The notes beneath the pieces are model-generated. The model saw only the letters and a list, made by a program, of their open reading frames with translations, had not been told where the DNA came from and searched no databases. Both the position numbers and the translations under genes were made by a program. Source: a virus. From it: a stretch of 35,875 nucleotides of DNA. The stretch lies in the IMG/VR virus record IMGVR_UViG_3300021197_001900, positions 1 through 35,875 of that record; one strand, 5' to 3'. Shown in pieces: positions 4,010 through 35,875 of the stretch (the stretch's first letter is position 1; every line of letters starts with the position of its first letter).

Positions 4010-4109
4010 GCCTGCTGTTGGACGCTCATCACATTCACAAATGAAAGGGAACCGTGCCGTGGAAGGTCTTAATTCCCCGATGAAGTCGGGTTCGACTCCC
4101 GAAGCAGGT
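4010..4109 (+). ncRNA. tRNA-like RNA 1 (acceptor and T arm, no anticodon arm)
   Basis: A 100-nt intergenic segment folds with a 7-bp acceptor-like stem (GCCTGCT 4010-4016 with AGCAGGT 4103-4109, one G-U pair at the end), directly stacked on a perfect T arm (TCGGG-TTCGACT-CCCGA, 4086-4102). Immediately 5' of the T arm, GATGAAG (4079-4085) pairs with CTCATC (4025-4030) with one bulged A, in the place of an anticodon or variable arm. A D-loop-like GTTGG follows the acceptor stem. The 48-nt apical part has no 7-nt anticodon loop; a GGGAA/TTCCC pairing is possible there. A run of six T (4115-4120) follows. The architecture resembles the tRNA-like domain of tmRNA in outline, but with no reading frame. 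A second element of the same design is at 33010. Function unknown. Confidence 0.55.
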
Positions 4110-4141: not shown

Positions 4142-4471
4142 ATGACTGCTGCTGTACTAGCAATGGGTTTGTTTTTTAGTTGGACGCCTGGCGTGAAAAC
4201 GCGAACACGCTCCTGTGAAATCAAACGTGAGGTGACGGTGACCAAGACTGTCGAATTGACTGATCAGGAGGCGTGCGAAGAAGAGTGCAAACGAATGATT
4301 CAATTTCGACGCATGCACGTTTTCAAGACGCCTGCTGGATGTTTTGAAGGATGCGGGATCAGTCGAAGCAAGGACGTTTCCACTTGCAGGCCAAATCGCA
4401 AGATGCGTTTGACCGGCGACTGCACAATTGAAAGGAATGGTTGGTTTTATCGCTGTCGCTTGTGGCGATAG
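4142..4471 (+). CDS. Secreted or membrane-anchored Cys-rich protein
   Basis: 109 residues from ATG 4142, with an AAGAAGGA ribosome site about 9 nt upstream. Residues 2-13 (TAAVLAMGLFFS) form a short hydrophobic segment, a possible signal sequence, though without a clear basic n-region. The rest is basic and has eight Cys (SC, ACEEEC, GCFEGC, STC, GDC, YRC) whose even number and paired spacing suggest disulfides in an exported protein. I do not recognise the family. Position between replication genes makes an envelope role, such as exclusion, conceivable but unproven. Confidence 0.65.
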   Translation: MTAAVLAMGLFFSWTPGVKTRTRSCEIKREVTVTKTVELTDQEACEEECKRMIQFRRMHVFKTPAGCFEGCGISRSKDVSTCRPNRKMRLTGDCTIERNGWFYRCRLWR

Positions 4472-18061: not shown

Positions 18062-18770
18062 TATACAAAACGCACCCGATGCCATCAAAGCTGACGCAGA
18101 AGCACAGACGGGTTTTTCACTCGCGTTTCGCAACGAAGCACAATCCGATGCTGCCGAGCTTTACATCCTTGAGCAGATTGGCGAGGACTTTTTCAGCGAT
18201 GGGGTCAACGCACAAGATGTAGTTGGATTCTTAAACAGCAATCAGGACCGCGACATTCGCGTTGTAATCAACTCGCCAGGCGGATCGGTCTATGACGGTC
18301 TGACGATCTACAACGCTCTTAAATCGCATGCTGGCGAGGTCAGAGTCGAAATTGTTGGTCAGGCGTACTCAGCAGCAAGTTTTGTTGCGATGGCAGGCGA
18401 CCACATTGCAATTCACCAAGCTGCCGACATTGGTATTCATCAAGCTCATGTGGTCTACGGTGGGAACAGCCACGGCATGCGTGCGATTGCTAATTATTTA
18501 GAAACAATTGACGAGCACCTTGTTGACATCTATCAGTCGCGAACTGGTCAAACTCGCGAGACAATCGAGTCGCAAATGGAAGGCGAAGACAAAGGCGTAT
18601 TAGGCACGCTAATGTCAGCGACTCAAGCCAAGGAACTTGGTTACGTCGATGAAATCATCGAGAACAAAAAGAAGAAAAAGCAGTATGCGATGAAAACTGA
18701 AGCAGTCGCAAAAAAACGAATTGCTGCTCACCACAAACTGCAACTTGAAAAACTTCGTAAAAGTGTTTGA
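18054..18770 (+). CDS. ClpP-like prohead maturation protease
   Basis: 238 residues from ATG 18054, overlapping the portal gene by 8 nt. The S14 ClpP-type fold is clear: INSPGGSVYDGLTIYNAL (about 79-96), the nucleophile Ser in GQAYSAASFVAMAG (about 108), the His in GIHQAHVVYGG (about 131-135) and an Asp later in the helix region. The C-terminus is Lys-rich (ENKKKKKQYAMKTEAVAKKR), a feature of proteases that also serve as or process scaffold. There is no separate scaffold gene, so scaffold function may lie here or in the capsid N-terminus. Confidence 0.93.
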   Translation: MFDIQNAPDAIKADAEAQTGFSLAFRNEAQSDAAELYILEQIGEDFFSDGVNAQDVVGFLNSNQDRDIRVVINSPGGSVYDGLTIYNALKSHAGEVRVEIVGQAYSAASFVAMAGDHIAIHQAADIGIHQAHVVYGGNSHGMRAIANYLETIDEHLVDIYQSRTGQTRETIESQMEGEDKGVLGTLMSATQAKELGYVDEIIENKKKKKQYAMKTEAVAKKRIAAHHKLQLEKLRKSV

Positions 18771-18835
18771 CAACAAATGATGTAATCCTAGAATCGCCGC
18801 ATCGAACTTGTTCGGTGAGCGTCAAGCTAGCTCAT

Positions 18836-18922
18836 AAGCGGCGTGACTCACTGCACCAGCGATACGTTTTTGTTTAATCACAAACCCGTGCGCTGGTCGG
18901 TAGGTCACGCCGCTTTTTTTGT
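18836..18922 (+). terminator. Long nested hairpin with T run before the capsid gene
   Basis: An outer 12-bp perfect stem (AAGCGGCGTGAC 18836-18847 with GTCACGCCGCTT 18904-18915) encloses a second perfect 7-bp stem (ACCAGCG 18855-18861 with CGCTGGT 18891-18897) and an inner TTTGT/ACAAA hairpin. Eight T (18914-18921) follow. It looks like a strong intrinsic terminator of unusual size, or a processed 5' leader structure that sets capsid mRNA level and stability. Confidence 0.75.
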
Positions 18923-18956
18923 GGTTTCCCTACTGACTAGGCAGTAAGGAAATCCA

Positions 18957-23958: not shown

Positions 23959-24170
23959 AGCGTAATCACCGATTGCGATATGCGTTTGACATTTGCAAGG
24001 ACTTGGGAATTGATGATCCAGTTTGCTGGATGAATTCCGTTCCTCCAAAAGTGTTGGATTTTTGGTTAGCCAGAGCGTTGCTGCTCGCAGAAGAGCAGAA
24101 GGAAAACATGGAACCTGACATGATGACTCCAGAGAACCTTGCAAAACAGTTAGGTGCAAACCATGCCTAG
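23929..24170 (+). CDS. Tail assembly chaperone T-like extension (made by -1 frameshift)
   Basis: This frame is the C-terminal part of the longer tail chaperone. After the slip it reads RIERFKRELKRNHRLRYAFD and goes on with CKDLGIDDPVCWMNSVPPKVLDFWLARALLLAEEQ. 'DFWLA' plus the preceding 'dlG.....' pattern resemble GpT-type domains, in which a small helix pair contacts the tape measure protein. A TTG at 23955 could start it alone, but the in-phase slippery site makes fusion far more likely. The fusion product from 23584 would be about 195 residues. It ends 8 nt after the tape measure ATG. Confidence 0.8.
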
Positions 24171-27100
24171 CGGAAAAATTGGATCGCTTGTTTACGATGT
24201 CATCGCTGACACTCGGCAGTTCACAAAAGGACTTATTCCTGCAAAAAAAGAATTGACTGCGTTCAATCGCATGATGATCAACACTCGCACGCCAATGGAA
24301 AAGCTTGGCATTGAGTTTGATGGGATTGCGAGAGTAGCACGAAGCGGTCTTGCACCAATCGATGCACTGTCTCGGACAGTTGGACAGCTGGCGGTTGAAA
24401 CGAAAGGCGGTGGTCGAGAAGCTCGAGAGTTCGCACAAAGCTTAAGAAAACAAGCAGGTGCAATTGGAGGTGCAAATCTTGGAACGCAGAGGTTAACGGA
24501 AGCAGAAAAAAACCTTCAGAACCATTTGCGTGCAGTCGCAGACGCAAGTGAGCAGGAAGTTAATTCGCTTAGGGCAAAGCGAGCAGAAACGCTTCTCGCG
24601 GAACGAGCAGCTAGGCAAGCCGCTGCTGCTGCTGCACAACAAGCAGAAGCAGACAAAAAAATTGCAGCTGAAGCAAAGAAAGCAGCAGAAGCGTTGCAAA
24701 AGCGTAAAAAAGCAATTGCCGAGGCAGCATCTGCCGCAACTAAAGCTCGGCAGCAGAGCCGCCAAAGAAGCATTGACTCTGCGAAGGGAATAGCTAGCCA
24801 GAGTGAAGCAGCAAGATTGTCTAGAGTACGCAGCGAGATTGAAGCAACCGTCCCAGCAGCAAAAAAGTTGGCAACGCGAATGGCAGAGGTTCGGCAAGAA
24901 TTTGCTGCTGGAAATATCTCGCAGGAAGCCTTTGAAAGAGTACAGCGTAAAATTGCACAAGAATTGCACGAAACTACTGCTGCCTACGCTAAAGAACAAC
25001 AGCAACTACAGCAAAACGCACAACAACTTTCTCGCGTCAAATCACTTGTTCAAAGCCTTGTTCCGCAGCAAGATCGGTTGCAACAGACAGCAAGCGAACT
25101 GCATAGCGAATACAGAAAAGGAAATATTACATCAACAGAATATCAGCGTGCGATTAAGCATCTTCGCGAAGAGTTTAACAAGACTACCGATGCATACGAC
25201 AAAAAGCAAAAGCAGTTGCAACAAAACCAAGAGCAACTCGCGCGTGTTAAATCACTTGTCGCAAGTCTTGTTCCGCAACAAGATCGTTTGCAGCAAACAG
25301 CAAGCGAGCTTTTTACAGAGTACAAAAACGGAAATATTACTCTAGCGGAATACAGGCGTGCAATAAAGCACGTTCGTGAAGAAACCTACAAAACCACTGA
25401 TGCATACGAGAAAGATCAAAAGCAGTTACGCGAAAACGCACAACAACTTTCGCGTGTTAAATCACTTGTTCAAAGCCTTGTTCCGCAGCAAGATCGATTG
25501 CAACAAACAGCAAACGAATTGCATAGCGAATATAAGAAAGGCAATATTACATCAGCGGAATATCAGCGTGCGGTTAAGCACCTTCGTGGCGAATACAACA
25601 AGCTTGACCCTGCTGTCCAAGAAGCAGACGCTAGATTGCAAAGAGTGCGTGCAACGGTTGAACGCACAATCACGCCAATGCAAAAGCTCGAAAAGGAACA
25701 ACGAGAACTTTCTCAAGAGTTTAAACGCGGCACCATCAGTGCTCAGGAGTATCGTCGGTCGTTAGCAATGCTGATGCGGCAAAAAAGAGAACTTTCGCCG
25801 ACGTGGAACAAAACCACTAAAAACGAAAAAAAGCTAGGTGCTCAATTTGCAGCAATTGCAAAGCATGTTGCTGGAATAACACTTGCATACAAAGCTCTAG
25901 ATCAAGTTCGCCAAGGTTTGCAAGATGCTTTTGACATGGAGCGAGCGACGAAACAGTTTGAGATTTTTACAGGAAGTGTTCAGCAGTCAACACGCATCAT
26001 CGCAGGCTTGCGAGACATCGTTGCTAGGACTCCTCTGACTTTTGCGTCAGCGCAGCAAGCAACAAGAACGATGATGCAGTATGGCGTTGCGTCAGAGGAT
26101 GTTTTATTGCGGTTGCGTCAGATTGGCGATGTCAGCGGCGGCAACCATGAAGCGTTGCAGAGACTTGCACTTGCAATGGGCCAGGTCACTGCTAACGGCA
26201 GGTTGCAAGGCCAAGAACTTCGTCAACTCATCGAAGCTGGCTTCAACCCTTTGCAAAGCATTGCAGAGAAAACTGGCAAAACGATGTTTGAGTTACGAGT
26301 TGAAATGGGAGAGGGCAAAATTTCCGCCGAGGACGTTGCAAAATCTTTGGACGCTGCAACGTCAGCAGGTGGAAGGTTTGCAGATGTGCTCGAAAGGATC
26401 GGAACAGAAACGAATGTAGGTAAAATTGAACGACTTCGAGGGCAGTTGCAACTGCTTCGACAGGACTACTTTGAAAATCTAACAGATGGACTTGGTGACA
26501 TAGGAGGCAGCGTTGCTGATGACCTGACTGAGCAACGCGCGGCAGCTAAAAAAGCAGTGTCCGACCTTCGGAAGGGTTCTGGTGATGGATTGAAAGAGTT
26601 TGCGATGGCAGACTTGTTTTCTGGAGGTTTAAAGCAAATGGCAGGGATCATTGCTTTAACAAAAGAACTGAACACAGAAGAGGAAATCAGGTTTAAGCTT
26701 GTAAAGGAAATTTCAAAGGAGCAGGCATTTGCTGATTCCGAACAAGGCAAAGCCTTAGCCGAGCGTATCGGTCAGTTAAAAAAAGAAACAGACTTGCGCA
26801 AACGTTTTTTGGAGTTTTCAAGTCAGTTTTCTGATCCTACTAACGAGTTAAAATCTGAATTTGACCGTGAGGAAGAACTGCGAAATGCCGACGCAGCAGG
26901 GGTACCGGAAAAAGAATTGGAAATGCTTAGAAAAGCATTAAACGATTCAGCGCGACTTGAAGGTTTAGAAGCGATGAATGAAGAAATGAAAAAAGTGTTC
27001 GACTTAGGCCAAGAATCTATAACCGAAACAAGAAATAAACGAACGGACAAGGATCAAGCGAAATTTGATTCTGATGAATTTATTGACAAACACGGGTTTG

Positions 27101-27597
27101 CAGGCTCAGAGGCGCAAATCAAAGCAGCAAAAGATTTTGATGATCGTATTCTGCGAGCGTGGGAGAACTGGCAAGAAATTGAAGGTCTTGCAGACGATGG
27201 ATTTTACAGCAAATTTAAAGAACAAAACTTGCAGTTTGCGGAGCAGGCTTTTGAGGAATTGATGGACGCGCAGCAACACGCAATTGATGTAGCCGGTAAA
27301 AACGACATCGACAAAGGAAAAGATGCCCTTAGCACTATTGCAGCAGAACGAGAGAAGCAACTCGAAGACAGAAAGCTGTCTGCCAAGCACAAGGAAGCTG
27401 TTGCTGCAACAAGAGGATCAAAGGCAGAATTCAAGCTTCTCAGTTCAATGCAAACGCAGAGACTAAATGCAGAACGTCAACGACACAAAGAAGCTCAGGA
27501 TTTGCGAACTAAAATGAACAAAGCATTAACTGACGTAGGCTTAAATTTAGCCGATTTGCCACAAGCAATTCAGAACATGCTACCGGAGGCAATCTAA
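24163..27597 (+). CDS. Tape measure protein
   Basis: About 1144 residues from ATG 24163, the longest gene of the window and in the usual place after the tail chaperones. Residues 120-200 are Ala/Gln/Lys-rich coiled coil. Residues 217-560 hold five related units, three of them nearly identical and exactly 70 residues long. From about 575 the conserved TMP domain follows: FDMERATKQFEIFTGSVQQS, DIVARTPLTFASAQQATRTMMQYGV, GNHEALQRLALAMGQVTANGRLQGQELRQLIEAGFNPL. The C-terminal 350 residues are helical and charged. It sets tail length and probably travels into the cell with DNA. No lysozyme or peptidase motif and no strong membrane spans are visible. Confidence 0.92.
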   Translation: MPSGKIGSLVYDVIADTRQFTKGLIPAKKELTAFNRMMINTRTPMEKLGIEFDGIARVARSGLAPIDALSRTVGQLAVETKGGGREAREFAQSLRKQAGAIGGANLGTQRLTEAEKNLQNHLRAVADASEQEVNSLRAKRAETLLAERAARQAAAAAAQQAEADKKIAAEAKKAAEALQKRKKAIAEAASAATKARQQSRQRSIDSAKGIASQSEAARLSRVRSEIEATVPAAKKLATRMAEVRQEFAAGNISQEAFERVQRKIAQELHETTAAYAKEQQQLQQNAQQLSRVKSLVQSLVPQQDRLQQTASELHSEYRKGNITSTEYQRAIKHLREEFNKTTDAYDKKQKQLQQNQEQLARVKSLVASLVPQQDRLQQTASELFTEYKNGNITLAEYRRAIKHVREETYKTTDAYEKDQKQLRENAQQLSRVKSLVQSLVPQQDRLQQTANELHSEYKKGNITSAEYQRAVKHLRGEYNKLDPAVQEADARLQRVRATVERTITPMQKLEKEQRELSQEFKRGTISAQEYRRSLAMLMRQKRELSPTWNKTTKNEKKLGAQFAAIAKHVAGITLAYKALDQVRQGLQDAFDMERATKQFEIFTGSVQQSTRIIAGLRDIVARTPLTFASAQQATRTMMQYGVASEDVLLRLRQIGDVSGGNHEALQRLALAMGQVTANGRLQGQELRQLIEAGFNPLQSIAEKTGKTMFELRVEMGEGKISAEDVAKSLDAATSAGGRFADVLERIGTETNVGKIERLRGQLQLLRQDYFENLTDGLGDIGGSVADDLTEQRAAAKKAVSDLRKGSGDGLKEFAMADLFSGGLKQMAGIIALTKELNTEEEIRFKLVKEISKEQAFADSEQGKALAERIGQLKKETDLRKRFLEFSSQFSDPTNELKSEFDREEELRNADAAGVPEKELEMLRKALNDSARLEGLEAMNEEMKKVFDLGQESITETRNKRTDKDQAKFDSDEFIDKHGFAGSEAQIKAAKDFDDRILRAWENWQEIEGLADDGFYSKFKEQNLQFAEQAFEELMDAQQHAIDVAGKNDIDKGKDALSTIAAEREKQLEDRKLSAKHKEAVAATRGSKAEFKLLSSMQTQRLNAERQRHKEAQDLRTKMNKALTDVGLNLADLPQAIQNMLPEAI
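24811..25800 (+). repeat. In-frame tandem repeats in the tape measure gene
   Basis: Three 210-bp units start at 25021, 25231 and 25441. Each encodes 70 residues with SLVPQQDRLQQTA in common, then an (E/N)L.(S/T)EY(R/K).GNIT..EY(Q/R)RA(I/V)KH motif. A more divergent unit lies upstream (24811) and another downstream (from 25630, shorter by 7 codons). The exact spacing suggests recent duplication; tail length would change by a fixed step per unit. Confidence 0.9.
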
Positions 27598-28535
27598 TGC
27601 CAACATTTGAAGTGTTTGAAGAGCGATCTCAAAGCTTGAAGATTACAGGCACAGATGACTCGATCAAAACTGTCTGGAACAAAGACTACGCAGTGCAGGT
27701 GACGCTTTCGGGAACAGAAACACTCGCAAGCATTGATGCATACGATGTGATGACAGCGACTGGTTTGCCAACAGTCAATCGCTCAATCTATCAGGTAAAC
27801 AACAAAATCATCCCGTTCGTTATCTGCCGAAGCAAAACCTGCAAGCCCATAAACAAGGCTTACACTAGGTGGACCGTAAGCACGCAATTTGAATCAACGA
27901 TAAAGCAAAACAACGACGAGGCAAACAACGCACCTATTGCCAAGCCTGCTTCAATAGCAGACCTACCCGTTCGCGTAGTTCCAGTCTTTGGAGAAACAGA
28001 AAAGGTCATCTATCAAGACAAGTCTGACCTAGAGGTTGAGTGCGCCAGGACTCCAGCAAAAAACTGGTGGACCGAACCCGTGATGGAAAAAATACCAACG
28101 CTTGCTTTGCAAATTACACAGTATGAATCATACATTAGCTACGAAACCTTGTTAGATAGAAAGTTTAAGGTCAACGACGATCTCTATCGAGGACAAGCAA
28201 GATTCGACTGGCTGATTACGGAAATTGAGCCAACTGAAGTAATCGTCGAGCTAGCCAGCGGTCCTACGCAAGCGGTGCAGATCACTTACACGGTCGCTCA
28301 CTCTCCTCATCTATACGGATGGAAAGAAGACCGTGCTTTAATTGATTCGCAGTACCTAGTGAACCCTGGTGCAAACGAAGAGATTAAGTTGTTCCAAAAC
28401 GATCAACCTGGAACAAAGTCGATAGGGTTTATTACCATCGCAGGCGAGCAACGCGGTGATCAGACTGGAGCACCTGATTACATTCAGTATGAGCAATATG
28501 ATGACATTGACTTCAGTTCCTTTTTGCGAGCGTAA
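27597..28535 (+). CDS. Tail protein downstream of tape measure
   Basis: 312 residues from ATG 27597, which overlaps the tape measure stop (TAATG). The sequence is beta-rich (YAVQVTLSGTETLASIDAYDVM, FVICRSKTCKPIN, VEVECARTP-type strands, then ALQITQYESYISYETLLDRKFKVNDDLYRGQARFDWLITEIEPTEVIVELASG). It has no enzymatic motif. By position it may act as a distal tail, baseplate hub or tail-tip protein, but I cannot match it to Dit or Tal families from the sequence. Two further genes of the same sort follow. Confidence 0.65.
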   Translation: MPTFEVFEERSQSLKITGTDDSIKTVWNKDYAVQVTLSGTETLASIDAYDVMTATGLPTVNRSIYQVNNKIIPFVICRSKTCKPINKAYTRWTVSTQFESTIKQNNDEANNAPIAKPASIADLPVRVVPVFGETEKVIYQDKSDLEVECARTPAKNWWTEPVMEKIPTLALQITQYESYISYETLLDRKFKVNDDLYRGQARFDWLITEIEPTEVIVELASGPTQAVQITYTVAHSPHLYGWKEDRALIDSQYLVNPGANEEIKLFQNDQPGTKSIGFITIAGEQRGDQTGAPDYIQYEQYDDIDFSSFLRA

Positions 28536-28537
28536 CA

Positions 28538-29785
28538 TTGTCAGGATTCTCATTCGCCAAGAAGCAAGACATACAGCGCGTGTTGAAAATGATCAACGCG
28601 CCGATGCATCACACGATGATGCCGCAGCACACAACTGCGCCGATAGATTACAACACGGCAGGGTATGTCTACCTGACTGGCAACGGAGGAATTCCTGCTC
28701 GAAACGGTCAAGTCTGTGGTGTTGCAGAATGCACTCCATACTTCATTGATAGAGAAACAAATGAACTGACTGAGTTGCTCAAGAACAACGGTGAGTCGCA
28801 GACTCATACTGTTCACAACATCGCGACAGACAGCGTTCCTGCGAACACTTACATTAATGCTCTTCGCACCTTCGACCGAGTCGTTGCGTTGAAAGAGTTT
28901 TCTGCTGGAGCAATGATCGCTTTTTATGTTCCAGAGGATTATAACCCTCCGACTGCAACCTATTGGTATGTTTCAATAACAGCAACGAGTAATCCCGTTG
29001 GTCCAGAAGACGATCCCCCAATGCCGGTCGAAGGGGACAACACAATTTTGTACAAGGGCCGAAGCTACGACAGCTACTCTAACGGTGCTGCTTACCATAC
29101 CTACGTTTGGATAATACAAAGTTGCAACAGCATCGACATGGGTGCGTGGCTTGAGAGCACCGGACCCCAGTTAATCGATGATTGGGTTGCTGACATTTAC
29201 CAAGGCGACGATGGAAATAAGGAGTGGATAAGAAACGCGACAACTGTAACGAACAGTTTACGCGATACGCACATGACGGTTATCGACACTGAGTTGACGC
29301 AACCTACTGATTACATAGAAAGTGACATCATCGCGTTGCTTGACGCAGACGATTGCGATCCTGATGAACTTTGCGCAAACAGTGAAAGTCCATCATTGAA
29401 CGTCATCGGTCGTTCAATGAAAGTTGACATCATTGCTAGGACTTGTGGCGTAAATCCAGTTCCACAAGAATCAAACAACCAAGTAACTGTATATGACACA
29501 ACTGGCAGTTTCTTGTATGGCAGACGATTGCAGGATGCAAAAGGTCGGTATGGCATTGCTGCCTACATGCAGTCAGATGGCGAATACGATTGCCACTGGA
29601 TGATTACTTGGCTGGACTGGTTCGATCCCTTGCAGGTAGTTCATGATGTAATCATTGGAGAAAACGGGATCACGATTGAACGATACAAGGTAGACGTTTG
29701 GCGAAAGTGCAAGCTTCCTGTTGAATTTGTGGAAGGCGAAACCTGCGAAGGTGATTACTACATTAATCCAAGCGGAGCAACGTAG
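28538..29785 (+). CDS. Minor tail / tail-tip protein
   Basis: 415 residues from TTG 28538, 2 nt after the preceding stop. A beta-rich protein with many aromatic residues: VYLTGNGGIPARNGQVCG, FSAGAMIAFYVPEDYNPPTATYWYVSITATSNP, YHTYVWIIQSCNSIDM, YGIAAYMQSDGEYDCHWMITWLDWFDPLQVV. No peptidase or glycosidase signature is visible. It contains a cluster of acidic residues (LLDADDCDPDELC), possibly metal binding. Likely a tail-tip or receptor-contact protein on grounds of position. Confidence 0.6.
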   Translation: MSGFSFAKKQDIQRVLKMINAPMHHTMMPQHTTAPIDYNTAGYVYLTGNGGIPARNGQVCGVAECTPYFIDRETNELTELLKNNGESQTHTVHNIATDSVPANTYINALRTFDRVVALKEFSAGAMIAFYVPEDYNPPTATYWYVSITATSNPVGPEDDPPMPVEGDNTILYKGRSYDSYSNGAAYHTYVWIIQSCNSIDMGAWLESTGPQLIDDWVADIYQGDDGNKEWIRNATTVTNSLRDTHMTVIDTELTQPTDYIESDIIALLDADDCDPDELCANSESPSLNVIGRSMKVDIIARTCGVNPVPQESNNQVTVYDTTGSFLYGRRLQDAKGRYGIAAYMQSDGEYDCHWMITWLDWFDPLQVVHDVIIGENGITIERYKVDVWRKCKLPVEFVEGETCEGDYYINPSGAT

Positions 29786-30404: not shown

Positions 30405-31652
30405 ATGAGTTGCAAAACAAACACATCTGTACCTTCTGGGCCAATGCCATTGTTGATTCTTCAACAGCGGCAACAAATTTGCGATGCCTGCGAGCACAAC
30501 AAGCATGGGGTTTGCAAGATTATTTCACGAAGGCATACATCAGCAAAAGCAATCATTGCTGATGGTATAAAGCGGGGCTCGCTAAAATGCCCGGTTGCGA
30601 AATGGAATTCAATCAAACGCATTTGCCCAGGTTGCAATCGACGAATTGAGGTCGATGAAATTAGCAATGTATGTCGCTGGTGCGATGTAAAACAAAAGTG
30701 TGGGGGTCGCGGAGGTGCAGCGGGATCGAAATTCCGAAAAGGCAATCCGTTTAGTTTGACGCAGGGAAAAGCGATGTGGATTTCAGCAGAAGACTTGGCA
30801 AGAGATGCAGTTCGGTTGTCGCAGTTGATACCAGCAGAAACTAAGGCAATTGTTGGCGTTGCAAGATCAGGCATCACGCCAGCAAACATAGTTGCAACAA
30901 TGCGACATCTGCCTCTGCTGGCAGTTCGGCAAACGCTCAATGATGTTATTGAGGTTGGTAATGGTTGGCGTATGGGTGGCAATAACCATGTTAAAATCAA
31001 GCCACATGAAATGGTTGTTGTTGTTGATGATACGGTGATGACCGGCAACTCATTCATTTCAATTCAAGACATTGTCTCGCGAACATTTCCAAGACACAAA
31101 ACAGCAGCGTGCTACGTCAATCCGTTGGCTAAGAAAAAGCCGGACATCTGGATCAGAGAACTTCCTGCACCGCACATTCTTGAATGGAATATATTTAACA
31201 GCGTCTACAGTCCAAGTATCGCGGTGGATTTTGACGGAGTGCTCTGCGACGATTGCCCACTAGGTGATGATGATGACGGGCGAAAATACATTGAATTTTT
31301 GACTAACGCTCGACCAAAGTATGTCGTTCGCAAAGCCACGATACCTCTGATTGTAACCGCAAGACTTGAAAAGTATCGAGCGATAACAAATGAGTGGTTG
31401 CAGAGACATGGGATAACGTGTCACAGGCTTGTGATGCACCCAGCAGCAACGCTTGCGGAAAGAAGACGCGATGACATTGCTGCATTTAAGGCAAGAGAAT
31501 ATTTAGGTTGGGTGACAAGTCATCGAGCTAATCCAGCACCAGCTATGTTTGTTGAGTCGGAGGATCGCCAAGCGCAGCGAATTGCACAATTGTCTGGGAG
31601 GCTAGTTGTTTGCCCCTCGTCTCGGCAGGTCTATGGAGATCCTCGGCAATGA
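30405..31652 (+). CDS. Zinc ribbon - phosphoribosyltransferase - HAD-like fusion protein
   Basis: 415 residues from ATG 30405. Residues 26-95 have Cys pairs of zinc ribbons (CDACEHNKHGVCK, CPGCNRRIEVDEISNVCRWC). Residues about 125-260 form a type I phosphoribosyltransferase: AIVGVARSGITPANIV as the PPi loop, then EMVVVVDDTVMTGNSF (about 202-217), the PRPP-binding signature with its DD pair. Residues about 270-400 are a HAD-like domain opening with SIAVDFDGVLCDDCP (nucleophile Asp and DxD-type start), then IPLIVTARLEKYRAI with the Thr of motif II. Such PRTase-HAD fusions act on nucleotides or sugar phosphates. It begins the late cassette of sugar-related genes, but its substrate is not evident. 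Confidence 0.8.
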   Translation: MSCKTNTSVPSGPMPLLILQQRQQICDACEHNKHGVCKIISRRHTSAKAIIADGIKRGSLKCPVAKWNSIKRICPGCNRRIEVDEISNVCRWCDVKQKCGGRGGAAGSKFRKGNPFSLTQGKAMWISAEDLARDAVRLSQLIPAETKAIVGVARSGITPANIVATMRHLPLLAVRQTLNDVIEVGNGWRMGGNNHVKIKPHEMVVVVDDTVMTGNSFISIQDIVSRTFPRHKTAACYVNPLAKKKPDIWIRELPAPHILEWNIFNSVYSPSIAVDFDGVLCDDCPLGDDDDGRKYIEFLTNARPKYVVRKATIPLIVTARLEKYRAITNEWLQRHGITCHRLVMHPAATLAERRRDDIAAFKAREYLGWVTSHRANPAPAMFVESEDRQAQRIAQLSGRLVVCPSSRQVYGDPRQ

Positions 31653-32203
31653 GAACAGCAGTCACGCTTGTCGCTAAAGGTCCATCGGCTAAAAACGCAC
31701 TTGCAATTGTGCGTGATGGAGATGCTATCGCATGCGTTAACGATGCTGGCATGCTGCTGCCAGGCGAAGAGATTGATTACGTTTTTTTTAGTGATGCAAA
31801 TGTATTCCCACTGCTAGAGCCAATGCGTGATCGCTTTGAGCGTGCCATCAGTCGAAAGATGAATCAAGCGCAATTGGAAAGCATGCCTGACTGGCTTGTC
31901 ATGCGACACAGCATGTACGACGACATCAGTTGTGCAGGCGAGCACGATGAACTTTGCCAGCGTGTGATACTTGGTGGAATTATGCACCACCATAGTACGC
32001 CTGGTGCGTTGCACTGGCTTGCAAAGTATGGGAAGTACAACACGATTCGAGTCACCGGCGTTGATGGTGGAACACGTTACGCCAATAACCTGTCTGCAAC
32101 TGGTGCAGCAAAGTATGACCTCGATGAGTGGGCAACGGTAACGAGGCGGGTTGGTGACATTTGCTCGCGAGTTTATGGAACGGTTATCGAGTGGCATTCA
32201 TGA
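31649..32203 (+). CDS. Sialyltransferase / DUF115-like glycosyltransferase candidate
   Basis: 184 residues from ATG 31649, overlapping the fusion gene stop (ATGA). It opens TAVTLVAKGPSAKNALAIVR, which matches the nucleotide-binding 'vxxGxGPS' loop of GT42/GT29-like sialyltransferases and DUF115 (Maf) proteins, followed by DAIACVNDA and YVFFSDANV, the usual '.N.a......d..f..D' stretch. Further on, HHHSTPGALHWLAKYGKYNTIRVTGVDGG is like the '(S/T)G..a...A...G...i...G.D' box of the same group. It is shorter than most members (usually above 250). Its partner gene makes an activated sugar, so transfer of a CMP-linked sugar is a coherent reading; the acceptor is unknown. Confidence 0.55.
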   Translation: MRTAVTLVAKGPSAKNALAIVRDGDAIACVNDAGMLLPGEEIDYVFFSDANVFPLLEPMRDRFERAISRKMNQAQLESMPDWLVMRHSMYDDISCAGEHDELCQRVILGGIMHHHSTPGALHWLAKYGKYNTIRVTGVDGGTRYANNLSATGAAKYDLDEWATVTRRVGDICSRVYGTVIEWHS

Positions 32204-32865
32204 AAGTTATCATTCCAGCCAAAGCATGCAGCGAGCGAGTGCATGACAAAAACTGGCGACCGTTTATAGATGATTTTTCGCTTGTAGACATTACGATCAC
32301 TAAGTTGATTGCTGCTGGATTCAACTCGCAAGACATTATCGTAAGCAGCGAATGCGAAAACAGATTGCAGGCAGCGGTAAAAAGGCACGGCATCGTGCCA
32401 ATGCTGCGGGATCTTGCGATGTGCTGCAACGATCTCTCGCTTTGCACATGGATACGCAGCACAGTTGAGCAAGCAGGTATCGAAGGTGATGTCGCGTGGG
32501 CCCAGGTCACCAATCCGGCATTTACGCAATACGCACATTGCGTAAGCACATGGGAAAGCGTCAGACACTTCGCAGACTCGCTGGTTGTTGCCTACCCGGT
32601 CAAACGCTATTTGATGATGGAAGCAGGTAGCTGGATGCGACCAATCGGTTGGTCTTTTGGTGAGCACCACACAAAGAGTCAGCAGTTGCCGATGATGTAC
32701 GAGATGCCGTTCACATTTTCAATACTGTCGCAAGAATCAATCGAGCGATCAGGCTACCACATTGGGCTCAGACCGCATTGGTTTGTTGCAGATGGCAAAT
32801 GTATCGACATCGACACAGAGGACGATTACAGGGCAGCACAGGCGTATTATTCAGCAACTCACTAG
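32200..32865 (+). CDS. CMP-sugar synthetase-like cytidylyltransferase (NeuA-like)
   Basis: 221 residues from ATG 32200, overlapping the previous stop (ATGA). The N-terminal MKVIIPAKACSERVHDKNWRPF matches the 'IPAR.gS.r...KN' nucleotide-binding loop of acylneuraminate cytidylyltransferases, with Lys-Asn kept and the Gly replaced. Then come DIIVSSECENRLQAAVKRHGI, a strand plus helix as in NeuA, and WAQVTNPAFTQYAHCVSTWE in place of 'qpTsPl....di...i'. The C-terminus, GKCIDIDTEDDYRAAQAYY, is the family's typical end, with metal-binding Asp in DID. It should join CTP to a 2-keto-3-deoxy sugar such as a nonulosonic acid. It ends the cassette and is followed by a strong terminator. Confidence 0.75.
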   Translation: MKVIIPAKACSERVHDKNWRPFIDDFSLVDITITKLIAAGFNSQDIIVSSECENRLQAAVKRHGIVPMLRDLAMCCNDLSLCTWIRSTVEQAGIEGDVAWAQVTNPAFTQYAHCVSTWESVRHFADSLVVAYPVKRYLMMEAGSWMRPIGWSFGEHHTKSQQLPMMYEMPFTFSILSQESIERSGYHIGLRPHWFVADGKCIDIDTEDDYRAAQAYYSATH

Positions 32866-32893
32866 CGAGCGATTCTAGACCCCCGCCTCGCGG

Positions 32894-32931
32894 CCCCGCA
32901 GGTTGCCCTCACCAGCCTGCGGGGTTTTTTT
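32894..32931 (+). terminator. Intrinsic terminator after the sugar cassette
   Basis: A perfect 9-bp GC-rich stem (CCCCGCAGG 32894-32902 with CCTGCGGGG 32916-32924) and seven T. It lies 29 nt after the CMP-sugar synthetase-like gene and closes the long late operon. Confidence 0.92.
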
Positions 32932-32963
32932 GTGCAAATATAGAAAAAGAGTATGCATGGTAC

Positions 32964-32993
32964 TTGCGTAGGTGACGATACTGTGCATATACT
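32964..32993 (+). promoter_or_regulatory. Candidate sigma70-type promoter for the tRNA-like RNA
   Basis: TTGCGT (32964-32969), an 18-nt spacer and TATACT (32988-32993). The expected start, near 33000, is about 10 nt before the acceptor stem of the RNA at 33010. The -35 box is weak. Directly after the terminator, a fresh promoter is expected. Confidence 0.5.
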
Positions 32994-33009: not shown

Positions 33010-33138
33010 GATGCGAGCTAACGGCAGCAGCCAGACGCTACTTGATTGTGCAGGGATTGACTCTGCGGCTTTAGCGGGCCGCGACCAAACGGCGCACAAT
33101 CATGCTGGTGTAGTCAGGGTTCGATCCCCTGTCGCATC
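33010..33138 (+). ncRNA. tRNA-like RNA 2 (acceptor and T arm, long helix in place of the anticodon arm)
   Basis: A 129-nt segment with a perfect 7-bp acceptor stem (GATGCGA 33010-33016 with TCGCATC 33132-33138) directly next to a perfect T arm (CAGGG-TTCGATC-CCCTG, 33115-33131). One base 5' of the T arm ends a long helix: CTAC (33038-33041) pairs with GTAG (33110-33113), and TGATTGTGC (33043-33051) pairs with GCACAATCA (33094-33102), with a 7-nt internal loop on one side. Its tip has a GCGGC/GCCGC hairpin (33065-33082). A D-arm-like stretch (33017-33031) includes a GG pair in the loop. Anticodon loop and CCA are absent. The design equals that of the RNA at 4010. It resembles the tRNA-like part of tmRNA or Y-RNA relatives but has no tag frame and no Ro gene nearby. 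Function unknown. Confidence 0.65.
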
Positions 33139-33152
33139 TACCCATACACATT

Positions 33153-33233
33153 GCTGGGTCGCACACATACGAAAGGTGGTGCGACCGCTGACGAGCGGCG
33201 TGGCGATCACGATTCGGTGCGACCCAGCTTTTT
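33153..33233 (+). terminator. Switch-like terminator with alternative hairpins
   Basis: GCTGGGTCGCAC (33153-33164) pairs perfectly over 12 bp with GTGCGACCCAGC (33217-33228), followed by five T. But its inner eight bases (GGTCGCAC) can also pair with GTGCGACC at 33179-33186, because GGTGCGACC occurs twice (33178 and 33216). The two pairings exclude each other. Between them lie CCGCT/AGCGG and CGTG/CACG hairpins. Terminator versus antiterminator control of the three small genes downstream is possible. Confidence 0.65.
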
Positions 33234-33279
33234 AATACAGAGTTACGGTAGTTTTTACGTTTTTTAGTGAGGATCAACA

Positions 33280-33477
33280 ATGCTGGTTTTTCAAGAGAAA
33301 GAGTCTGGTGCGCTATTGAATCCTAGAGTTGAGGGAGGCTTAGGTGTGCATGAAGTGTTTGGCGACGAATACATTGGAAAATCGTGGGATGAGGCAATGC
33401 AAGATTGGCTAAATGGTCCAATGAACATTGATGCAATTCCAGGTTACGAAATTGCAGAGGTGACCAGCAATGACTAA
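33280..33477 (+). CDS. Small hypothetical protein after the RNA locus
   Basis: 65 residues from ATG 33280, 46 nt after the switch-like terminator. Acidic, with no membrane span: LVFQEKESGALLNPRVEGGLGVHEVFGDEYIGKSWDEAMQDWL. I see no motif. It overlaps the next gene by 8 nt, so the three small genes here form an operon under the control of whatever passes the terminator. Confidence 0.6.
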   Translation: MLVFQEKESGALLNPRVEGGLGVHEVFGDEYIGKSWDEAMQDWLNGPMNIDAIPGYEIAEVTSND

Positions 33478-33673
33478 CTCAGAACGAAAGACAACAACGC
33501 AACCAGATGACTGGTGGCGTGCCTTCGAGCAGGAGGCTCAGAAACGCGGCATGACGCTCGCAGGATGGATGGGTGAGGTTTGTTCCGCCCAGTTACCAAA
33601 ACGTGTTCAGGCGAAGCTGTCAGAGCGACCGGGAGCACATCGACCTAAGAAAAGTGAGGTGAGTGATGGATGA
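33470..33673 (+). CDS. Small protein with ribbon-helix-helix-like segment
   Basis: 67 residues from ATG 33470. The central part (DWWRAFEQEAQKRGMTLAGWMGEVCSAQL) has the helix-turn-helix spacing seen in the second half of ribbon-helix-helix repressors ('a...g.sl..wi.e....'). The C-terminus is basic and rich in Pro. This may be a small DNA-binding or antitoxin-like protein; with no clear beta strand before the helices the call is tentative. No toxin partner is evident beside it. Confidence 0.5.
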   Translation: MTNSERKTTTQPDDWWRAFEQEAQKRGMTLAGWMGEVCSAQLPKRVQAKLSERPGAHRPKKSEVSDG

Positions 33674-33851
33674 TAAAAAGGTTTTGAAAGTGCTCGTGAT
33701 GTGCGAGCAGTTTTTGCGTAAATACATCGAGATGACTCCCGACGAGCGAGTTGCCCATGGCCCCGAGCTTAGTGAGCTTGCGACAACTACTCTTGATCAA
33801 CTTGAAAGCACTGTTGACGCAGTAGAACTTGATGTAGAGTTAGACGACTAG
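33666..33851 (+). CDS. Small acidic helical protein
   Basis: 61 residues from ATG 33666, overlapping the preceding stop; GTG 33663 is an alternative. It is a helix-rich acidic protein (VLKVLVMCEQFLRKYIEMTPDERV, then LATTTLDQLESTVDAVELDVELDD). No motif and no family recognised. A 10-bp stem follows 28 nt downstream. Confidence 0.6.
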   Translation: MDDKKVLKVLVMCEQFLRKYIEMTPDERVAHGPELSELATTTLDQLESTVDAVELDVELDD

Positions 33852-33909: not shown

Positions 33910-33919
33910 TCAGCACTGT

Positions 33920-34130
33920 CATTCAGGTTGACCCCCACCATACCGGTGATGCTCGTCATTCAGGTTGACCCCCACCATACCAGCCATGCTCGTCATTCAG
34001 GTTGACCCCCACCATACCGGCGATGCTCATCATTCAGGTTGACCCCCACCATACCGGCGATGCTCATCATTCAGGTTGACCCCCACCATACCGGCGATGC
34101 TCGTCATTCAGGTTGACCCCCACCATACCG
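33920..34130. repeat. 37-bp tandem repeat array (5.7 copies)
   Basis: Five full copies and a 26-nt partial copy begin at 33920, 33957, 33994, 34031, 34068 and 34105. The conserved part is CATTCAGGTTGACCCCCACC followed by ATACC; variation is confined to GGTGATGCTCGT versus AGCCATGCTCGT or GGCGATGCTCAT. There is no unique spacer and no gene. The array abuts the next, unrelated array without a gap. Confidence 0.92.
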
Positions 34131-34479
34131 CTGAGCTCCCAGGATCCCTGACAGCATCAACCACTGAGCTCCCAGCTTCCTGGCAGCATCAACCACTGAG
34201 CTCCCAGGATCCCTGGCAGCATCAACCACTGAGCTCCCAGGATCCCTGGCAGCATCAACCACTGAGCTCCCAGGATCCCTGGCAGCATCAACCACTGAGC
34301 TCCCAGCTTCCTGGCAGCATCAACCGCTGAGCTCCCAGCTTCCTGGCAGCATCAACCACTGAGCTCCCAGGATCCCTGGCAGCATGAACCACTGAGCTCC
34401 CAGGATCCCTGACAGCATCAACCACTGAGCTCCCAGGATCCCTGGCAGCATCAACCACTGAGCTCCCAGCTTCCCAGGC
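34131..34479. repeat. 32/33-bp tandem repeat array, left copy
   Basis: Eleven direct copies beginning CTGAGCTCCCAG. Two unit types alternate irregularly: 33 bp with AGGATCCCTGG and 32 bp with AGCTTCCTGG, each followed by CAGCATCAACCA. Each 33-bp unit holds a GAGCTC palindrome and a CCAGG/CCTGG stem. All frames across it are open, giving spurious reading frames. The same units reappear at 35530-35875 in the same orientation. Confidence 0.92.
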
Positions 34480-34583
34480 CGTTTGGGGGGGCATGCCCCC
34501 AAACGCAACAAACCCTGCCAGGGTATCCCCTGGCAGGGTTTGTAGTTTGTTAGTTTGTTAGTTTGTTAGTTTGTTAGTTTGTT
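34480..34583. terminator. Two strong hairpins and an 8-bp tandem repeat at the 3' end of the minus-strand gene
   Basis: The first hairpin has a 10-bp stem (CGTTTGGGGG 34480-34489 with CCCCCAAACG 34496-34505). The second is a perfect 16-bp stem (34508-34523 with 34528-34543) with loop TATC, containing CCTGCCAGG/CCTGGCAGG. Then follow about five copies of TTAGTTTG up to the gene's stop codon. On the minus strand these lie just downstream of the gene and probably end its transcript. Confidence 0.75.
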
Positions 34584-35427
34584 AGCTGGGTTTGTGCTCG
34601 ACACTAAACCCGCTGGCAATGGCAGCATCACGTTTGTCGTTTGATGCTGATTTAAGTTTTAAACCGATAACCTTCCCACCCCTGGGATCGGTAAACCTTA
34701 AATCGGTTTCATCACCATTAATAACCTCAAACCCTTCCCAGGTTTCTGGCAAGGTTTGTTTGCCAGATCGATTCCCGCTAAACTTCCCAGGGTTATGAAA
34801 CACGATGGCAACATTACCCCCTTGCGATAGAATCTTAAGCGCAGTTTGTTCGTTTGTTTCTGAGCGGGAAAACGTTACCCAGTAGTTAGGCAATAATACG
34901 CCAAACCGTTTAGCATGCTTTGTATAATCGTAGAATTGACAGTTTGGGTGGTTCTCAATTATACCACTGAGCTCCCAGGCGATATCGCTAAAAACGTTTG
35001 GACGGCATGCCAGGTTTAAACCCTTACGCTCAGCTTTGTTTTCCCAACGTGTTAGCTCAGCATCAAACCTATCGTAAAACCACTGACGTTCCCGATAATA
35101 TAAAACGTTTTTAGCTATCCTGGCAGCTTTGATAGTTTTAAAAATGGCTCCCATTCCGGTCTCATCCAGGCATGCATTAATGCATGCCTCCGATGCATCG
35201 GTACAAACGTTACCGATTCCCGATTGCCTGGCAGGGGATATCGATAAACCACAAGTAAGAAACCCCCTGCCAGTATTCTTCGCTAGTTTGGCGTTTGAGT
35301 CTCCATCAGCTAACAAACGTGAAACCTTAGTTTCCATATTCAAACTGGGGATACAAACCACTGGGTTTGTACCTTCCCAACGTGAAACAAACGGAACATT
35401 AGCAGCGGCGATAGTTTCGAGCAACAT
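34582..35427 (-). CDS. GP88/DUF7227-like protein of unknown function
   Basis: 281 residues from ATG at 35427, chosen because a promoter lies at 35486-35514 and because longer readings would start in the repeat array. TAAGG precedes the start. Features: GLSISPARQSGIGNVCTDAS and EACINACLDETGMG (Cys set, residues about 60-85), KTIKAARIAKNVLYYRERQWF, LNLACRPNVFSDIAWELSG, NCQFYDYTKHAKRF, NYWVTFSRSETNEQTALKIL, GGNVAIVFHNP and INGDETDLRFTDPRGGKVIGLKLK. This matches a phage and plasmid family with 'SDI.WE', 'FYDYTK', 'FSRSE.NE' and 'DGDETDLRF' boxes, which I recall as DUF7227. The gene at 21331 shares the general order and may be a distant relative. It is the only clear minus-strand gene and differs in word use from the rest (frequent CCTGGCAG and CCCAGG), suggesting separate acquisition. 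Confidence 0.75.
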   Translation of the reverse strand: MLLETIAAANVPFVSRWEGTNPVVCIPSLNMETKVSRLLADGDSNAKLAKNTGRGFLTCGLSISPARQSGIGNVCTDASEACINACLDETGMGAIFKTIKAARIAKNVLYYRERQWFYDRFDAELTRWENKAERKGLNLACRPNVFSDIAWELSGIIENHPNCQFYDYTKHAKRFGVLLPNYWVTFSRSETNEQTALKILSQGGNVAIVFHNPGKFSGNRSGKQTLPETWEGFEVINGDETDLRFTDPRGGKVIGLKLKSASNDKRDAAIASGFSVEHKPS

Positions 35428-35485
35428 AGTCTTAAACCTTAAGATGTGGTGATTTGTTACTAGGGGAATCCCAGTAACTGTACGT

Positions 35486-35514
35486 ATTGTTATGGCATCG
35501 GCTAACAATGTCAA
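35486..35514 (-). promoter_or_regulatory. Sigma70-type promoter of the minus-strand gene
   Basis: Read on the minus strand: TTGACA (35514-35509), a 17-nt spacer and AACAAT (35491-35486). The -35 is perfect. The start would lie near 35479, giving a leader of about 50 nt before ATG 35427. This decides against translation starts inside the repeats. Confidence 0.65.
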
Positions 35515-35529
35515 CAGCATTAATAAAAA

Positions 35530-35875
35530 TTGAGCTCCCAGCTTCCTGGCAGCATGAACCACTGAGCTCCCAGGATCCCTGGCAGCATCAACCACTGAGC
35601 TCCCAGGATCCCTGGCAGCATCAACCACTGAGCTCCCAGGATTCTGCCATCAACTGAGCTCCCAGGATCCCTGGCAGCATCAACCACTGAGCTCCCAGGA
35701 TTCTGCCATCAACTGAGCTCCCAGCTTCCTGCCATCAACTGAGCTCCCAGCTTCCTGGCATCAACTGAGCTCCCAGCTTCCTGGCATCAACTGAGCTCCC
35801 AGCTTCCTGGCATCAACCTAGCTCCCAGCTTCCTGCCATCAACTGAGCTCCCAGCTTCCTGCCATCAACTGACCT
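35530..35875. repeat. 32/33-bp and shorter repeats, right copy, to the window end
   Basis: About twelve direct copies of the TGAGCTCCCAG unit. The first few are the 32/33-bp types; later ones are shortened to about 26 bp with CTGCCATCAAC or CTGGCATCAAC. The array runs off the window end, which is probably where assembly stopped. No gene is supported here. Confidence 0.9.

Follow-up and report, generated by a model that had tools for sequence, protein, structure and literature searches.

The DNA analyzed here, hereafter the window, is a single virus record from IMG/VR, 35,875 bases long, with genes for integrase, replication, terminase, portal, capsid and tape measure. On its minus strand, behind or beside the integrase gene, lies the 3' part of a tRNA-Lys(UUU) (1800-1858), which probably constitutes the attP site. 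A 42-nt exact match to this segment was found in eight genome contigs, seven of which are labelled Rhodopirellula, Rubripirellula or other Planctomycetota/Planctomycetaceae and one "bacterium TMED88". This exact match suggests a Rhodopirellula-like planctomycete of the Pirellulaceae type as the probable host. One planctomycete genome (G224) bears a related prophage in two copies about 44 kb apart (contig 1, about 7.966 and 8.011 Mb), which are syntenic with the window and show about 40% terminase identity. To our knowledge, little has been established about gene control in planctomycete phages.

Behind the tail genes, a late terminator is followed by a promoter-like site, a tRNA-like RNA, the hairpin under study (33153-33233) and three small genes (Table 1). 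The promoter-like site was the best hexamer pair between 32930 and 33012. A scan of the gap 33234-33279 returned no comparable promoter, although planctomycete promoters are little known and one could be missed, so that read-through from the upstream promoter would be the simplest source of transcripts for 33280-33851.

Table 1. Features discussed in the text; positions refer to the window unless an element is named.
Feature	Position	Strand	Description
Second tRNA-like candidate	4010-4109		acceptor GCCTGCT/AGCAGGT, T arm TCGGGTTCGACTCCCGA; gap before gene at 4142
Capsid-leader promoter	18767-18794		TTGACA-16-TAGAAT
Capsid-leader terminator	18838-18913		76-nt rod, T7 to 18920, z -8.7
Late (tail) operon terminator	32892-32932	+	stem and T7, z -4.1; start of unit
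Promoter-like site	32964-32993	+	TTGCGT-18-TATACT
tRNA-like RNA	33010-33139	+	acceptor 33010-33016/33132-33138; T arm 33115-33131, loop TTCGATC
Intrinsic terminator	33153-33233	+	arms 33153-33164/33217-33228, T5 at 33229-33233
Proximal copy of GGTGCGACC	33178-33186	+	pairs with 33157-33164; competing hairpin -15.6 kcal/mol
Distal copy of GGTGCGACC	33216-33224	+	terminator 3' arm
First gene after terminator	33280-33477	+	65 aa, coding score 0.07
Second gene	33470-33673	+	67 aa, conserved in planctomycete elements and L094
Third small gene	33663-33851	+	62 aa, coding score 0.134
G106 tRNA-like RNAs	L085:3556-3629, L085:11864-11974, L086:362-428, L086:8865-8934, L087:13080-13151

The only syntenic relative used for this region was contig L094 (the same contig as L099, which is its full form), which has the tail module in common with the window (27597-28535, 56% amino-acid identity). 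Its late terminator carries an identical loop, TTGCCCTCACCA, on a stem with compensatory changes, and right behind it, at the aligned promoter position, lies TTGACG-17-TATCGT, followed by a small ORF and a homologue of 33470-33673 (61%). Neither the tRNA-like RNA nor the second terminator occurs in L094; these elements would have been either inserted, in the lineage of the window, in the space from the promoter to the small genes, or lost in that of L094. Searching viral contigs with the late-terminator loop pattern gave eight matches, with L099 the only homologous one, and 241 genomes gave none. No relatives of the proteins encoded at 32161-32865, 30405-31652, 28538-29785 and 33280-33477 were confirmed in viral contigs, and none were found for the last of these in any search. 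Behind the homologous gene of the syntenic G224 prophage stands a plain terminator, and the site showed no tRNA-like RNA.

The arms of the hairpin, GCTGGGTCGCAC and GTGCGACCCAGC, are complementary at 12 of 12 positions, with 52 nt between them and T5 immediately after, showing the GC-rich stem running directly into a U tract that characterizes intrinsic terminators. When T5-anchored perfect repeats with arms of at least 12 nt and loops of at most 60 nt were counted on both strands, the window contained one and 300 dinucleotide shuffles none. The region folded at -45.5 kcal/mol (z -6.25), and a d'Aubenton-Carafa-type score was positive at about 10 and lower than the 39-45 of the late terminator. 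The 9-nt GGTGCGACC occurs as a direct repeat starting at 33178 and 33216, 38 nt apart, with the proximal copy inside the loop, and GGTCGCAC (33157-33164) can pair 8/8 with either 33179-33186 or 33217-33224. These data confirmed the statement of an earlier note on this DNA that one sequence can pair with either of two identical copies. The same note held that only the distal pairing yields a 12-bp stem followed by T5; the arms and the T tract were indeed as described, but the predicted fold, instead of a bare stem with an open loop, is a rod with few interruptions that includes the proximal copy, paired with the opposite side of the loop. With the arms fixed, an additional copy of at least 8 nt of the 3' arm appeared in shuffled loops with P = 0.0035 in a post-hoc test. 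Neither the perfect repeat with its T5 nor the duplicated arm is expected by chance, and the assignment of 33153-33233 as an intrinsic terminator is well supported. Two features count against it, namely the shortness of T5 and the duplicated arm, which a plain terminator does not need. No relatives carrying the element were found, hence it offers no covariation and no proof of selection.

The layout had also been read in the earlier note as that of an attenuator or riboswitch platform, with the tRNA-like RNA as a possible sensor domain. Two mutually exclusive helices, one of them the terminator, and a leader-like position were in fact present, and the possible switching was then evaluated by folding the nascent chain from 33147 onwards, with path barriers computed by findpath as upper bounds. 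The proximal hairpin was predicted to appear first, when the nascent end reaches about 33186, and to persist to about 33219. At 33222 the two states were equal in energy (-27.4 and -27.6 kcal/mol) and separated by a computed barrier of about 16 kcal/mol, which dropped to 6.6 kcal/mol as the 3' arm emerged, while from 33228 the terminator was ahead of the competing hairpin by about 11 kcal/mol. The early folding of the proximal hairpin, the energy tie and the change in the barrier thus make a kinetic competition possible. But the pre-terminator structure (-24.3 kcal/mol) was not more stable than with shuffled loops (-21.6 +/- 2.8, P = 0.16), and the proposal of switching was not supported.

A duplex between the tRNA-like RNA and the terminator scored no better than shuffles (P = 0.78), leaving the supposed sensor unconnected to the switching helix. 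Both the supposed sensor and the switch are absent from L094, the one syntenic relative. Rfam returned no family at gathering score in this region, only chance-level matches up to E 10, and no curated covariance model for T-box or any other known cis-regulatory RNA matched. A ligand- or tRNA-driven switch, for which the layout is the sole positive evidence, is improbable.

The RNA at 33010-33139 has a long helical arm in place of the anticodon arm and a fold z of -2.05. A descriptor combining a 7-bp acceptor and a 5-bp T arm with a TTCRA loop matched 33010-33138 and one other site of the window, 4010-4109, against 0.07 matches per shuffled window; the latter is the weaker candidate because its overall fold was no better than shuffles (z -0.36). 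ARAGORN and Rfam recognized the upstream RNA as neither tRNA nor tmRNA. A tmRNA origin was also considered by visual comparison with host tmRNAs and, with no Rfam or ARAGORN match, was dropped. Relatives of the RNA were found neither by a pattern scan of IMG/VR for the T arm and acceptor nor by blastn against phages and 17 related viral records, and the 241 Pirellulaceae-family genomes gave only short, chance-like matches.

Several tRNA-like RNAs devoid of a normal anticodon arm were detected in prophage-like elements of a planctomycete genome, G106, which carry homologues of two window genes. Their acceptor stems covary: in three homologous RNAs all 16 tested pairs were kept, five of them with changes on both sides, a level reached by 4 of 500 shuffles; the comparison covered three sequences only. 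The RNAs occupy gaps between genes, mostly with no terminator behind, which indicates that such RNAs need no terminator switch; in L086 a 13-bp hairpin with almost no U tract separates one of them from the next gene. The conserved D-arm pattern of these RNAs, searched in 396 genomes of the order, occurred in G106 only. DNA identity between the L085 and L086 elements ends immediately downstream of the 111-nt RNA. A tRNA-like leader RNA is known to regulate in cis in the yjdF system, and work on it showed that such leaders can raise translation in vitro (PMC9142559). By analogy, raising translation may be one possible role of the tRNA-like RNAs.

A search for long-armed repeats with T5 identified a further hairpin at 18838-18913. 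The region 18767-18956 comprises a promoter, this 76-nt rod hairpin with T7 and then the capsid gene. A promoter-like site, the motif CTCRTWAGCGGC and a hairpin with changed stems were observed at the same place in L003 (87% capsid identity), in L004, in the group L005/L006/L008/L011-L016 and in the G224 prophage, and the layout reaches relatives at about 35-40% capsid identity. A strong T tract is present in the window, L003, L004 and G224, and a weak one in the L005-type group. In these leaders CTCRTWAGCGGC forms the 5' side of the hairpin, while in 33153-33233 a similar AGCGGCGTGGC lies in the loop (33193-33203) and not in the outer arm. Homology between the two elements was rejected, since they have only a short motif in common and their folds differ.

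Taken together, we consider that 33153-33233 acts as an intrinsic, Rho-independent terminator closing a short unit and as a fixed attenuator for the genes behind it, with a probability of about 60%. The 12-bp GC-rich stem with T5, absent from 300 shuffles, and the z of -6.25 support this reading, as does the non-coding score of the ORF running through the element. Further support comes from the promoter position and the preceding terminator, both conserved in L094, and from the disadvantage of about 11 kcal/mol predicted for the proximal hairpin after the whole 3' arm has emerged. Transcription would start just upstream of 33010, and the polymerase would pass the tRNA-like domain and mostly stop at 33229-33233, so that the RNA would measure about 230 nt. 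As no promoter is evident for the small genes at 33280-33851, their transcripts probably come from polymerases reading through, a fraction which the terminator would lower by a fixed amount. The proximal repeat would form a transient nascent hairpin that may render termination less complete, without serving as a ligand-controlled antiterminator. The element is thus most likely an ordinary stop signal and not a proven on/off switch.

Among regulated alternatives, termination controlled by an antitermination factor is the main one, as the capsid leader repeats the same succession of promoter, terminator and gene in the same phage and in relatives down to 35-40% capsid identity. In phage Xp10, P7 reportedly helps the polymerase past intrinsic terminators ahead of late genes (PMC6624301), and the late genes of lambda are controlled by Q (PMC7171158). 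The layout matches that used with such factors in other phages, and this analogy raises the standing of regulated termination at 33153-33233, where, before a phage factor carries the polymerase into the downstream genes, an early stop would leave a short leader transcript. On the other hand, the two terminators differ in fold, the late-operon terminator ahead of the unit looks unconditional, and no antitermination gene stood out on non-systematic inspection; we consider this explanation unlikely. Somewhat more doubtful is an RNA switch with the proximal pairing as antiterminator, the distal one as terminator and the tRNA-like domain sensing, for instance, tRNA-processing enzymes or ribosomes. 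The exact second copy of the arm, the early proximal hairpin with its tie and high computed barrier at 33222, the leader position ahead of genes and the yjdF precedent speak for such a device, but the full-length terminator is better by 11 kcal/mol, the competing structure and the pairing with the tRNA-like RNA are at chance level, no relative with the element was found, and the other tRNA-like RNAs, in planctomycete prophage elements, have no such terminator.

It is improbable that a tRNA mimic lacking an anticodon arm, belonging to a set of such RNAs in the intergenic gaps of planctomycete phages and prophage elements, controls read-through of the duplicated-arm terminator, for example when tRNA enzymes bind or cut the mimic. 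A slightly lower probability still was assigned to an RNA-processing unit, in which RNase P and RNase Z would excise the tRNA-like RNA as they do a tRNA, and the hairpin would mainly shield the 5' end of the downstream mRNA. The terminator-free tRNA-like RNAs between genes of related prophage elements and the U-poor hairpin in L086 fit this arrangement, whereas T5 right behind the stem better suits a terminator. Finally, an ORF of 74 aa (ATG 33011 to TAA 33235) extends over both the tRNA-like region and the terminator, and a ribosome translating it would melt the hairpin; terminators close to stop codons are known to be repressed by ribosomes (PMC4824070). This ORF is open, AAGGA lies about 11 nt before it and its ATG is near the position of the small-ORF start in L094, but its codon score is -0.06 against 0.02 to 0.18 for phage genes (one real short gene scores -0.02), no relatives of its product were found, and a perfect inverted repeat with a tRNA-like fold would be odd within a gene, so a coding function is very hard to credit.

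Compared with known systems, the element resembles intrinsic terminators in its GC-rich stem, T tract and a fold far more stable than shuffles, but differs in its long structured 52-nt loop, its short T5 and the presence of its 3' arm a second time within the loop. Like the late-gene terminators of lambda with Q and Xp10 with P7, it stands in a series of promoter, short leader RNA, intrinsic terminator and phage genes; unlike them, it shows a tRNA-like domain in the leader, small downstream genes and no identified antitermination factor. Transcriptional riboswitches and attenuators likewise place alternative helices that cannot coexist, one of them a terminator, in a leader-like position, whereas here no known aptamer, no coupling of the upstream RNA to the hairpins and no relative with the element were found and the stabilities are very unequal. 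The yjdF riboswitch similarly carries a tRNA-like fold within a 5' leader, but acts on translation via its T loop and the ribosome-binding site (PMC9142559), and no Rfam match was obtained here.

The analysis yields a testable unit of promoter, tRNA-like RNA, terminator and small genes, and the follow-up led to the capsid-gene hairpin terminator common to a phage group and to planctomycete prophage tRNA-like RNAs with covarying acceptor stems. If termination is controlled, the antitermination logic of lambda or Xp10 would extend to the planctomycete phylum, where we know of no studies of antitermination of this type.

Other repeats were observed in the window. Long tandem arrays (37-nt x 5.8, 33-nt x 10.5 and 26-33-nt units) occupy 33918-34474 and 35531-35872, on either side of a GP88-like gene (34582-35628), and their unit contains the palindrome-like CCAGGATCCCTGG. 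A perfect 16-bp hairpin at 34508-34585, ACAAACCCTGCCAGGG...CCCTGGCAGGGTTTGT, continues into a (GTTTGTTA)6 repeat, and the tape-measure gene (24154-27597) contains an internal 210-bp tandem repeat at 25007-25586.
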